Translations under genes and position numbers: made by a program
Origin: Bacillota bacterium
GTDB taxonomy: Bacteria > Bacillota > Clostridia > Monoglobales > Firm-18
Direction: 5' to 3'
Assembly (NCBI GenBank): GCA_022706765.1
Contig: JAKJBX010000008.1
Span: forward strand, 1-64,000
DNA length: 64,000 nt
In this document: positions 29,235 to 40,674 of the stretch, in pieces
Layout of the letters: every line of letters starts with the position of its first letter
How positions within the stretch are numbered: position 1 is the first letter of the stretch
The notes under the pieces: generated by a model
Databases searched by the model: none
What the model was told of the DNA's origin: nothing
Seen by the model: the letters and a program-made list of their open reading frames with translations, nothing else

Positions 29235-29591
29235 ACAGTTGCAAAAATTTTCTTTATATGATAGAATAGTGGCAACGGAAACACGGACAAATAAAAAAAG
29301 CGGCAGGACAATGTGCGCCAACACATTGCCCCTGCAATACGGGTGTACGCATCACCTATACGCAACCGGATGACCGGCACCAAACCCATTATAACACATT
29401 CCTCCATGATTTTCAAGAGGGGGTGTGCGGGGAATTCGGCACAAAGAATAAGCGCAAGCGTGTAGGAAAACTGCCAAGGGGCAGCGTTCTGCACGCTTTT
29501 TTATGTTTGTGTTTTCGGTAAACCGAGGTTTGGCGCCCGGGTGCGAACGGGCGCCAAGCCTTGATATTATCGGAAGCATGAGGTGGGACAA
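29235..29591. other. Gene-free stretch with one minus-strand terminator
   Basis: I find no convincing gene in this 350-base stretch; short open frames lack ribosome-binding sites. On the minus strand GCAGGGGCAATGTG and CACATTGTCCTGC (29334-29303) form a hairpin followed by TTTTTTTATT (29300-29291), a good intrinsic terminator. This suggests that some minus-strand RNA comes from the 29340-29580 region. Confidence 0.5.
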
Positions 29592-30076
29592 TTGGATAAA
29601 ATTTTAGGCGGATTCTTAAACTCCATCATCATCGGCGGGGAGGAGGAGCCTGTATGTTCAAACTGTAAGCATAGGGGAATCGAACACACACAGCCCCTGC
29701 CGTGTAATTTTTGCGTATTTTATCGTTGTCGTCCTTGCCTTGCGTCAGCAAGGCATCGTCCTTCGCCGAAAAAATTCATCTAAAATTCCAACGGCAGGGG
29801 TGCTGCGCAGTTTTGGGTGAGTGGATTTTTGTTCGGGCAAGTAAAATCATGCAGGTAATACTGACGTATTGCCAAGGGATTTTGCGCTGTACGAGCACAA
29901 ATCCACCACCCAAAACCTATGCGGGTTCGACTCCCCTATGCTTTAAGCATATAATTCACAAAAGCTCCGACTATTTGCTGTTTACAGGCGAGAGTCTGCA
30001 CCTGGATTGCCTGACGGATTATCAGCAAAAGCTGAACCTTTTGGTCTTGGTTATAAGGCGGGGCGAACACCCATAA
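29592..30076 (+). pseudogene. Small gene split by an E-type element
   Basis: A frame starts at TTG 29592 behind AGGTGGGA and reads 27 codons: DKILGGFLNSIIIGGEEEP, then VCSNCKH. It is then broken by the 271-bp element at 29673-29943. Directly after the duplicated TAAGCAT (29944-29950), the same frame resumes at 29951 with IIHKSSDYLLFTGESLHLD and ends at TAA 30074-30076. Removing the element plus one copy of the 7-bp repeat gives an uninterrupted 68-codon gene with a CxxC motif, followed by a strong terminator. I do not recognise the product. Whether the transcript is still functional, for example by excision, is unknown. Confidence 0.72.
29673..29943 (-). mobile_element. E-type structured element, copy A (271 bp)
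   Basis: This non-coding element is closed by a terminal helix: AAGCATAGGGGA at the left boundary (29667-29678) pairs with TCCCCTATGCTT at the right end (29932-29943). TAAGCAT flanks both sides (29666-29672 and 29944-29950). Internal helices include GTGGATTT (29821-29828)/AAATCCAC (29899-29906) and GCCTTGC-GTCA-GCAAGGC (29737-29754). It is the reverse-complement relative of copy B at 39283-39548, with paired changes in each helix. It interrupts a small gene. Confidence 0.82.
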
Positions 30077-30190: not shown

Positions 30191-30538
30191 CTATCGCTCC
30201 AATATATTTTTACAATACGCTTTCAGTACAGGCATATCATTGACAACCGTATCCCAAACATCCGTAATATTAATACTTCCGTAAGCGTGAGCGGCAATAT
30301 TACGCATTGCCTTAATGCTCCGCCACGGAATTTCCCGATGTGCTGTTGTAAACTCATTCGAGAGCCGTCCCGCCAATTCGCCGATTTGAAGTATGCACAT
30401 TGTGACGGCGTTGCGGTAAATCTTATCTGCCTTAAAGTTTTCCAATGTATTCCCAAATCGGGAAACGGTTTGTTCAATTTCCGTGCAATACTCAATCATA
30501 TGTGAGATTAGCCCTAAATCCTTCTTACTGATTGCCAA
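30191..30538 (-). CDS. hepT: HepT-like toxin (DUF86, putative RNase)
   Basis: HepT proteins are HEPN-domain toxins with the R-x4-H-x-Y catalytic motif. Here it is RNIAAHAY at about residues 79-86. The 115-residue helical product fits the family in length and in the motif-flanking segment IPWRSIKAMRN. It overlaps the upstream MntA-like gene by 14 bp, the usual antitoxin-toxin order and coupling. The pair would act in the cytoplasm; MntA adenylylates the Tyr of the motif to silence HepT in studied systems. Both key motifs are intact, so an active module is likely. Confidence 0.9.
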   Translation of the reverse strand: MAISKKDLGLISHMIEYCTEIEQTVSRFGNTLENFKADKIYRNAVTMCILQIGELAGRLSNEFTTAHREIPWRSIKAMRNIAAHAYGSINITDVWDTVVNDMPVLKAYCKNILER

Positions 30539-30827
30539 AAATCAGCACCTCCTCATCGGAGATTTCTTTTTTGAAATTTTCATCAAGACTGTCGGTGGTC
30601 AAAAGGTCAACCGGCACTTTAAAGGCATCTTCAAGATCGGCATACAGCCCGCCCAAAGCAAACAAACCGCGAATACGCCCTCTGTCAATACGAAAATCCA
30701 AATCACTGTCCGCTTTGGCTTCCCCGCGGGCATATGAACCAAAAAGGAACATCCGCTCTACGCCGTGACGCTGAGCAATCTCTCCCGCAATATTTTTTAT
30801 TTCGTCAACCGTGTAAATGCGCTGCAT
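30525..30827 (-). CDS. mntA: MntA-like nucleotidyltransferase antitoxin
   Basis: This 100-residue minimal nucleotidyltransferase has the GS-x10-DxD motif GSYARGEAKADSDLD (31-45), which binds metal and nucleotide. In the HepT/MntA family it adds AMP to the toxin tyrosine. AAGGAGGGGA precedes ATG 30827. The gene is first in the pair and is followed by hepT with a 14-bp overlap. Its promoter region carries a 17-bp inverted repeat at the predicted transcript start, which suggests a regulatory stem. Mobile patches of this kind are common beside repeats, as here. Confidence 0.9.
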   Translation of the reverse strand: MQRIYTVDEIKNIAGEIAQRHGVERMFLFGSYARGEAKADSDLDFRIDRGRIRGLFALGGLYADLEDAFKVPVDLLTTDSLDENFKKEISDEEVLIFGNQ

Positions 30828-38933: not shown

Positions 38934-39200
38934 TTAAATATATTCGATGCCCAGTATCTCGCCCTCAATCAGCACGTCGACGTCGGTGATCGCACGCAGC
39001 TCCAGCCCCTTGCCGCTGACCGCAATCGCCTTGCCCGAGGTTTTCAGCCGGATATATTCGTCCGTGTATTGCAGGATGCCGCTGTAATTTTCCACCGTCA
39101 GCTGGCTGTCGCCGTACACCGTCAGCTTCGGCAAATCCAGCACGACCTCCTTCGGCATGTCAAACAGCTCCGCCATGCGCTCTTTCCTTGACTTTTTCAT
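38934..39200 (-). CDS. yqfC: Sporulation protein YqfC
   Basis: YqfC is a small (about 90-residue) YabP-superfamily protein of the mother-cell sporulation programme. The 88-residue product has the beta-sandwich pattern DLPKLTVYGDSQLTVENYSG, then YIRLKTSGKAIAVSGKGLEL and a closing VLIEGEILGIEYI. The start at ATG 39200 is preceded by AAAGGAA; an in-frame start at 39227 would add nine residues. It is transcribed before yqfD. The upstream gap towards ylbJ contains an E-type element. Confidence 0.92.
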   Translation of the reverse strand: MKKSRKERMAELFDMPKEVVLDLPKLTVYGDSQLTVENYSGILQYTDEYIRLKTSGKAIAVSGKGLELRAITDVDVLIEGEILGIEYI

Positions 39201-39282
39201 ACGAACCATTCCTTTCGGTTGATGCACGCTTCTTCTTTAAATTTATGCAAGTTTAAAGGCAATATGAATATATATAGCATTG

Positions 39283-39548
39283 GAGAGGTGAGTCCGCATA
39301 GGTTTTAAATGGCGGATTTGTGCCCATGCAGCGCAAAATCCCTTGGCAATACGCCAGTATTACCTGCGTGATTTTACTTGCCTGAACAAAAATCCGCTCG
39401 CCCAAAACTGCGAAGTACCCCGCTGCCGGAAATTTTGATGGATTTCGCGGAGGGGAAGGACGGTTGGCTGACGCCAACCAACGACGGCAACAAAGAAAGA
39501 CGCAAAATTAATGCGTCGGGGCTGTGCGTGTTCAACTCTCCAATGCTA
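39283..39548 (+). mobile_element. E-type structured element, copy B (266 bp)
   Basis: TAGCATTGGAGAG (39275-39287) pairs with CTCTCCAATGCTA (39536-39548) as a terminal helix, and TAGCATTG occurs on both sides (39275-39282 and 39549-39556). Internal helices include GCGGATTT (39312-39319)/AAATCCGC (39390-39397) and GGTTGGC-TGAC-GCCAACC (39462-39479). About 80 central bases are nearly identical to copy A (reverse strand at 29673-29943). It sits in the gap between yqfC and ylbJ and touches the ylbJ ribosome-binding region. Confidence 0.82.
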
Positions 39549-39567
39549 TAGCATTGAGGTGATTATT

Positions 39568-40674
39568 TTGCGGCTGCTTTGGGGGTTTACCGTCTTTGTG
39601 GTTTTCGGGCTGGTGTGTGCGCCCGCCGAATGTCTTTCGGCGGCGGCGGCGGGGCTTGACCTTTGCGCAAGGGTGATCGTGCCGTCGCTTTTTCCGTTCT
39701 TTGTCTGCTCCGCAATCCTGACCCAAACGGGCGCTGCCGGGGTGCTGGGCAGGTGGTGCGCTTTCATCATGCGCCCGCTGTTCAACGTCCCGGGCAGCGG
39801 CGGCGTGGCGTTCGTGCTGGGGATCATGAGCGGCTATCCTGTCGGGGCAAAGCTCGGCGCCGACCTTTATGAGACCAACCAATGCACCCGTGCGGAGGCG
39901 CAGCGCATCGTATGCTTTTGCAACAATGCAGGTCCGCTGTTCATCATTGGCAGCGTCGGCGCAGGTATGCTGGGCAGCCGCACCCTCGGGCTGATGCTGT
40001 ATGCCATCCACGTTTTGAGCGCCGTATCCGTCGGCATCGTGATGCGGTTTTATAAAAAAGACGAGCGGATGACCGTAGGCTGTGCGGCTTACCGCCTTGC
40101 GGGTGCGCAGCAAACGACCGCCGGAGGCGTGCTCTCATCCGCTGTAACAAAGTCGGTCGAGCTGATTTTCTATGTCTGCGGCTTTATCGTGTTCTTTGGG
40201 GTGCTGACCGCCATTTTGACGCATTTCAAAATCATTGCCGCTATGCAGTCCCTGCTTTGCCTGCTCGGGATGACGCCCGAGGCGGCACGGGCGGCGTGCT
40301 TCGGGTTTTTGGAGGTGACGGGCGGCGCAGTACGGGCGGCGGTGCTGTCCTCCGAGCCGCTCAGGCTGGTGTTGCTGTCGGCGCTCCTCGGCTGGTCGGG
40401 CGTCAGCGTGATTTTGCAGGTATCCGGCATTTTACAGGTCAGCGGGCTGTCGCCGGCGGTGTTCATGCTCTCTAAGCTGTTGCAGGCGGGATTTGCGGCG
40501 TTTTACGCGCTGCTGTTTTCATTGCTGCCCGTCGGCTCCGCGGCGGTCTTTGCCGGCGGTAGGACGTCGGCAGCCGAGGCGTGGGTGTTTTCGCTGCTGC
40601 TTTTGGGCATAAGCGCCGCCGTCATTTTTTCGCTGTCGCTGTGCCGTCTGGTCTACATCAACCTGCGGCGGTAA
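39568..40674 (+). CDS. ylbJ: Sporulation integral membrane protein YlbJ
   Basis: YlbJ is a sporulation membrane protein with a nucleoside-recognition (Gate) domain and is required for late spore development. The 368-residue product has about eight membrane spans. Family segments include CARVIVPSLFPFFVCSAIL, LGIMSGYPVGAKLGADLYE and RIVCFCNNAGPLFIIGSVG. The start is TTG 39568, with GAGGTGA seven bases upstream; the open frame from 39511 covers the E element. The leader ATAGCATTGAGGTGAT is repeated before the gene at 40832. The stop codon abuts an M-type element. Confidence 0.9.
   Translation: MRLLWGFTVFVVFGLVCAPAECLSAAAAGLDLCARVIVPSLFPFFVCSAILTQTGAAGVLGRWCAFIMRPLFNVPGSGGVAFVLGIMSGYPVGAKLGADLYETNQCTRAEAQRIVCFCNNAGPLFIIGSVGAGMLGSRTLGLMLYAIHVLSAVSVGIVMRFYKKDERMTVGCAAYRLAGAQQTTAGGVLSSAVTKSVELIFYVCGFIVFFGVLTAILTHFKIIAAMQSLLCLLGMTPEAARAACFGFLEVTGGAVRAAVLSSEPLRLVLLSALLGWSGVSVILQVSGILQVSGLSPAVFMLSKLLQAGFAAFYALLFSLLPVGSAAVFAGGRTSAAEAWVFSLLLLGISAAVIFSLSLCRLVYINLRR

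Follow-up and report, generated by a model that had tools for sequence, protein, structure and literature searches.

Bacterial MITEs seldom extend beyond a single genus, and for most of them the mechanism of movement has yet to be worked out. Small mobile sequences that end in TA, possess inverted repeats and yield highly paired transcripts form an established category in bacteria (PMC2229807; PMC10969869), and for published bacterial MITEs the TA termini are accompanied by stable stem-loop transcripts (PMC2229807).

The Correia or NEMIS elements of Neisseria resemble the family described here, family E, in being small and gene-free, with inverted-repeat ends and a terminal TA, and their transcripts form long stem-loops that have been proposed as substrates of RNase III (PMC2229807). 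They occur in one genus, are about 107-155 bp long and form one stem-loop, whereas members of family E measure about 270 bp, form three arms whose interior fold is conserved, and occur across 46 or more genera. Family E has the TA target, the inverted-repeat ends and the non-autonomous character in common with RUP of Streptococcus pneumoniae, but the ends of RUP match IS630-Spn1 (PMC2229807), whereas family E has no accompanying IS630-type gene. The repeats bcr1-bcr18 of the Bacillus cereus group are also dispersed and intergenic, some of them MITE-like, and some structured and transcribed in untranslated regions (PMC3446304); in the cited work they belong to one species group, and we set them apart from family E by their description rather than by comparison of sequences. 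REP and BIME palindromes (RAYT/Y1) are, like family E, dispersed palindromes, and are recognised by structure, but they measure 20-40 bp, and Y1_Tnp is neither present in our source genome nor associated with family E. Finally, some of the palindromic candidate RNAs from human microbiomes (250 of 3,161 candidates) may be members of family E or of its sister family F, although the palindromic examples in the main text of that study come from Bacteroidetes, unlike family E (PMC8040213).

Two copies of family E in the window

The window, by which we mean the whole stretch of 64,000 nucleotides analysed, contains two related full-length elements, as the earlier note on this DNA had proposed. Copy A (276 bp) occupies 29668-29943 on the minus strand and is 88-93% identical to five further full-length copies in the same genome. 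It is flanked by a TA on either side, at 29666-29667 and 29944-29945, which are the two halves of a duplicated target according to the rejoining of the gene that it splits. Copy B (273 bp), on the plus strand, is also TA-flanked and is 79% identical to copy A; it covers 39276-39548, its left end lying about 7 bp further out than the position 39283 given before. No gene lies inside the element, and the claim that it encodes no protein therefore stands.

Read along its own strand, copy A begins with the 5' arm of the outer helix P1 (AAGCATAGGGGAGTCGAACCCGCATA, 29918-29943), followed by arm P2 at 29807-29917 (covariance model R1, E 1.7e-33), arm P3 at 29689-29810 (covariance model R2, E 3.2e-30), and the 3' arm of P1 at 29668-29688, which ends in GTGTTCGATTCCCCTATGCTT. 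The tip of P3, at 29728-29764 (row L021), consists of a G·A ladder around a hairpin. In copy B, P2 is found at 39301-39411 (R1, E 2.6e-31), P3 at 39408-39526 (R2, E 1.8e-23), and the P3 tip, with one mismatched step in its ladder, at 39455-39488 (row L033), all on the plus strand. The paired changes between the two copies are in the sequence as quoted in the earlier note, namely GTGGATTT/AAATCCAC in place of GCGGATTT/AAATCCGC, the tetraloop hairpin GCCTTGC-TGAC-GCAAGGC of copy A in place of GGTTGGC-TGAC-GCCAACC in copy B, and the change in the outer (terminal) helix, P1. Of the 27 pairs of P1, 13 carry changes on both sides.

Near copy A lies a gene pair of the toxin-antitoxin type, coding for a HepT-like ribonuclease and a nucleotidyltransferase (30191-30827, minus strand). 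Copy B is located between a YabP-family gene (38934-39227, minus strand) and a gene with a Gate domain, similar to YlbJ of sporulation (39511-40674, plus strand), and sits just upstream of the apparent ribosome-binding site of the latter. Outside one end, both window copies repeat their own terminus (TAAGCATA at 29944-29952 and TAGCATTG at 39547-39557). A preference for insertion into end-like sequences, suggestive at these two copies, was rejected over 98 elements (p = 0.08).

A BLAST search with copy A gives 35 matches in the source genome (1.63 Mb in 26 contigs, 82% complete), of which about 13 are full-length and at least 15 partial, either truncated or internally deleted; none is protein-coding. 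Partial copies retain one end or the other, without a consistent pattern of 5' truncation. Copies of the F type are also present. Two elements of different subfamilies, L030 (C26:10796-11166) and L035 (C1:24383-24760), have, at one and the same position within P2, an extra palindromic repeat of about 105 bp, and a repeat of the same type lies beside an F copy in L042. Three others (L027, L031 and L048, on contigs C10, C16 and C8) have in common an outer helix of clearly different sequence, in which GCCCGAGGTATC or GCGTGAGGTATC pairs with a matching partner; this helix shows two compensated changes and sits within a shared terminator-like flanking repeat; a repeat related to this flank occurs in the window at 29440-29560.

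Mobility and the TA target

Copy A splits a small plus-strand gene, whose 5' part (ending in VCSNCK) lies at 29565-29667 and whose 3' part (beginning with HIIHKSSDYLLFTGESLHLDC) lies at 29946-30076, as judged from identity to paralogues across the join. When copy A is removed together with one TA, a frame of 77 residues is rejoined, and two intact paralogues can be aligned to it with no gap, at 53% identity over 75 aa for the one on contig C8 and 51% over 72 aa for the one on contig C10. Copy A thus shows a target-site duplication of TA, the length of which is ambiguous because the direct repeat at this site is TAAGCATA. More generally, a TA is mirrored at the end of the helix in 51 of 88 elements, and further out in 3 of the 88.

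Copies with 88-93% identity are found in unrelated flanks, and two orthologous empty sites were identified: one locus is filled in L101 and empty in L175, and five congeneric species lack an element that genome G297 carries at the corresponding gene junction. Unrelated flanks, the split gene with its duplicated TA, and the empty sites are three lines that agree, and family E is therefore mobile, as had been claimed.

Fold and covariation

In the consensus fold, the outer helix P1 meets two arms at a three-way junction, P2 with about 110 nt and P3 with about 120 nt; the folding energy of intact members is about -100 to -160 kcal/mol. Among 12 full-length copies of the source genome, 30 of the 105 pairs of the fold are changed on both sides, and their covariation score of 0.263 exceeds that of shuffled alignments (0.140; 0/500) and of slid controls (at most 0.05), which bears out the paired changes noticed in two copies. 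For arm P2, 150 class-wide rows, fitted to the structure and including about 54 opposite-strand rows, give a score of 0.528 against 0.166 in shuffled alignments (0/500).

Nine loci (L091, L096, L099, L102, L104, L259, L271, L272 and L280) are variants in which an inverted P2-like arm stands in place of P3, and most of these show a match to R1 on the opposite strand, directly adjoining P2. A kissing loop between the tips of P2 (CGTCAG) and P3 (CTGACG) was considered and rejected, with a complementarity of 9.55 against 9.43 ± 0.31 in shuffled sequence (p = 0.35).

Spread across Clostridia and sister family F

The clostridial search suggested in the earlier note gave full-length matches to the P2 model R1 in 72 of the 391 class genomes searched, representing 46 of 223 genera, often with at least 8 matches per genome among the nine candidates scored for each. 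Outside the class, a second draw over the phylum yielded one weak match in one genome. In about two thirds of the 30 loci that scored best, the P3 model R2 has its match immediately beside P2 and in the same orientation; since R2 played no part in selecting these loci, this confirms the architecture independently.

The pattern of the P3 tip occurs in at least 114 stretches of GTDB genomes, from Oscillospiraceae, Ruminococcaceae, Oscillibacter and other Clostridia; a related tip is present in the cultured Oscillibacter sp. 1-3. Many of these stretches belong to a second family, F, which consists of single hairpins of about 150-190 nt with the same tip and without P2. In the Oscillospiraceae genome RGIG7069 (L110-L189, JAFYGM contigs), many contigs stop at most about 110 bp away from an identical F element; this is a recent high-copy expansion of F that breaks the assembly. 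Searches for plasmid or phage carriage gave no plasmid match and one weak phage match, and the P3-tip pattern was present in one of 2.9 million viral contigs; carriage of family E by phages or plasmids was rejected on this near-absence.

Folded strand or DNA inverted repeat

If an RNA or a specific single DNA strand is selected for its fold, G·T mismatches are expected far above A·C mismatches. A first count on the RNA-predicted fold (90:19) was discarded, as it is biased by the G·U pairs which that fold permits, and we used strand-neutral counts instead, in which each arm is aligned to the reverse complement of the other and G·T and A·C mismatches are scored alike. As a control, the tRNA acceptor stems of the same DNA give a G·T:A·C ratio of 9:1.

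In P1 the ratio is 133:124. The outermost 9 bp of this helix, in which about 98% of the pairs are Watson-Crick and each of the four pair types occurs, give 7:4. The outer helix of P2 shows massive covariation with intermediates of both mismatch kinds nearly absent, and an apparent A·C excess in P2 was traced to a few fixed columns. Family F has 125 G·T against 16 A·C in the middle of its stem. At the P3 tip, Watson-Crick steps are separated by tandem G·A pairs on one strand only, and where one base of a step changes, its partner changes with it (G-C/A-T, G-C/A-T and C-G/T-A/G-C). The ladder is found on the element strand in 49 of 115 elements and on the reverse strand in 2 of 115, by a loose scan that also finds it in 14 of 115 shuffled sequences, though without a fixed step pattern.

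Strand-specific wobble is thus absent in P1, hardly seen in P2, and present in the F hairpins and at the P3 tip. Because G·T and A·C are nearly equal in P1, this helix looks like a DNA-level inverted repeat rather than a strand-specific fold, and the outer P2 has the same appearance. In contrast, the strand-specific ladder with its compensated steps and the 125:16 ratio of family F look like selection on one folded strand, either RNA or single-stranded DNA. The earlier note took the paired changes as strong evidence of a folded RNA or single-stranded DNA form; this holds for the P3 tip and for family F, and does not hold for P1 or for the outer P2.

Identity and search for the mover

Family E has the anatomy of a bacterial MITE, a non-autonomous, TA-flanked inverted-repeat element: it is short and multi-copy, lacks a transposase gene, and has terminal inverted repeats (P1), TA duplication and empty sites. 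The IS630-type DDE_3 transposases are the usual TA-duplicating family; they are absent from the source genome and occur in 3 of 72 element-positive genomes against 26 of 391 overall (tallied by hand), and an IS630 transposase was rejected as mobiliser since it shows no association with the element. Y1_Tnp (PF01797) is also absent from the source genome, and its occurrence in 46 of 72 positive genomes against 233 of 391 overall (again tallied by hand) makes it equally common with and without the element, so that a Y1/HUH transposase was rejected as well. Judged by the transposases of the carriers, family E accordingly fits neither MITEs derived from IS630/Tc1-mariner nor the IS200/IS605 or REP/RAYT systems, for which Y1 was the marker. 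In five element-rich genomes, no ORF-bearing relative with the same ends was found, end pairs being only about 105-270 bp apart.

Comparison with Rfam gave no match at the gathering score and none in a low-threshold scan, consistent with the earlier statement that no named element has this architecture. No paper or Rfam family that we found describes E or F, with PMC8040213 covered by its main text, and either family may already have been listed as a candidate without a name. One element end, GTTCGAnTCCCCTATG, closely resembles the T-arm of a local tRNA-Glu gene (C26:11406-11424, L058). An origin from tRNA, which the likeness of the right end GTTCGATTCCCCTATG to the tRNA-Glu T-arm might suggest, was rejected given that the element has no tRNA fold.

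Orientation to genes

At co-directional gene pairs, with genes called by a simple ORF rule, class-wide and own-genome copies of E are oriented in sense in 36 cases and in antisense in 17, and for family F the bias is nearly nil (21:16). Several copies lie in sense directly behind stop codons inside operons, at genes which we name from their sequence as lysS, ilvB-ilvN and a PilB-like gene. Given the weak bias of E and the ratio of F, orientation lends little support to a role in transcripts, and a cis-regulatory RNA in fixed orientation was rejected.

Discussion

We consider it somewhat probable (roughly 0.55) that family E is a MITE-type, TA-inserting element moved in trans, the interior fold of which acts mainly after insertion, as RNA. 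According to this explanation, a gene-free element of about 270 bp, bounded by the perfect inverted repeats P1, inserts at TA and duplicates it, as seen for copy A. The mover would most likely be a transposase acting in trans, which recognises the P1 ends and uses an ordinary DNA route; as the ends act as DNA terminal repeats at TA, such an enzyme is the simplest mover. The interior is more than filler, since the arms P2 and P3, with the tandem G·A ladder at the end of P3, keep a fixed single-strand fold throughout the class, and this fold would act mainly when read through with neighbouring genes. Read-through would place a compact, structured stretch of RNA in untranslated regions or between the genes of an operon, where a host protein such as a double-strand RNase may handle it. 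The sequence of P1, strongly variable even within one genome, is unusual for a transposase site and counts against this explanation, as do the failure to find an ORF-bearing relative in five element-rich genomes, the scarcity of DDE_3 and the weak sense bias.

A fold that is kept while sequence and ends change, a P3 tip that is strand-specific and conserved, and an orientation to genes that is nearly free would all suit a folded single DNA strand as the substrate, with a protein recognising the hairpin arms of one strand during replication and moving single-stranded DNA, as in IS200/IS605, REP and attC. We regard this as possible but rather unlikely, since TA duplication and long inverted-repeat ends are not known as features of IS200/IS605, and Y1_Tnp, absent from the source genome, shows no excess with the element. 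Similarly, we propose only tentatively, and with the odds against it, that the element represents a new class of mobility, in which an enzyme yet to be described, common to E and F across Clostridia, would recognise the element by the shape of one folded strand (the three-way junction and the G·A-ladder tip) and move it, its termini drifting provided that they stay palindromic.

It is improbable that the paired changes are mutational rather than selected, even if hairpin-templated repair (quasipalindrome correction) can copy one arm onto the other, so that perfect palindromes persist without function. This would fit P1 and the outer P2, with their four pair types and hardly any mismatched intermediates, and the lack of a G·T excess in P1, but it leaves unexplained the conserved unpaired positions, the compensated steps of a tandem G·A ladder on one strand, and the G·T excess of family F. 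That a structured RNA spreads by reverse transcription of an RNA copy, its fold being the template or the site where a protein binds, appears very improbable: the strong strand-specific fold and the failure to find a DNA transposase speak for it, whereas partial copies keep either end instead of showing consistent 5' truncation, and symmetrical inverted-repeat ends with TA duplication fit DNA transposition.

The preferred reading, a MITE moved in trans, thus places family E in a known kind, and as a family it appears to be new, the class-wide conserved fold and modular arms seeming to be without precedent. What is unusual in it is the class-wide range, the modular arms, the tandem G·A ladder at the tip, and ends that vary and yet stay palindromic. 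Paired changes alone do not prove an RNA, and the asymmetry of mismatches is worth checking. Families E and F explain contig breaks and spurious small ORFs in the genomes that carry them. Mobile copies with one and the same fold are spread over dozens of clostridial genera from gut and rumen, and the P3 tip is common to a second hairpin family. Family E thereby offers a deep natural alignment with which to ask what selection maintains in the interior of a MITE and by which enzyme such an element is moved.
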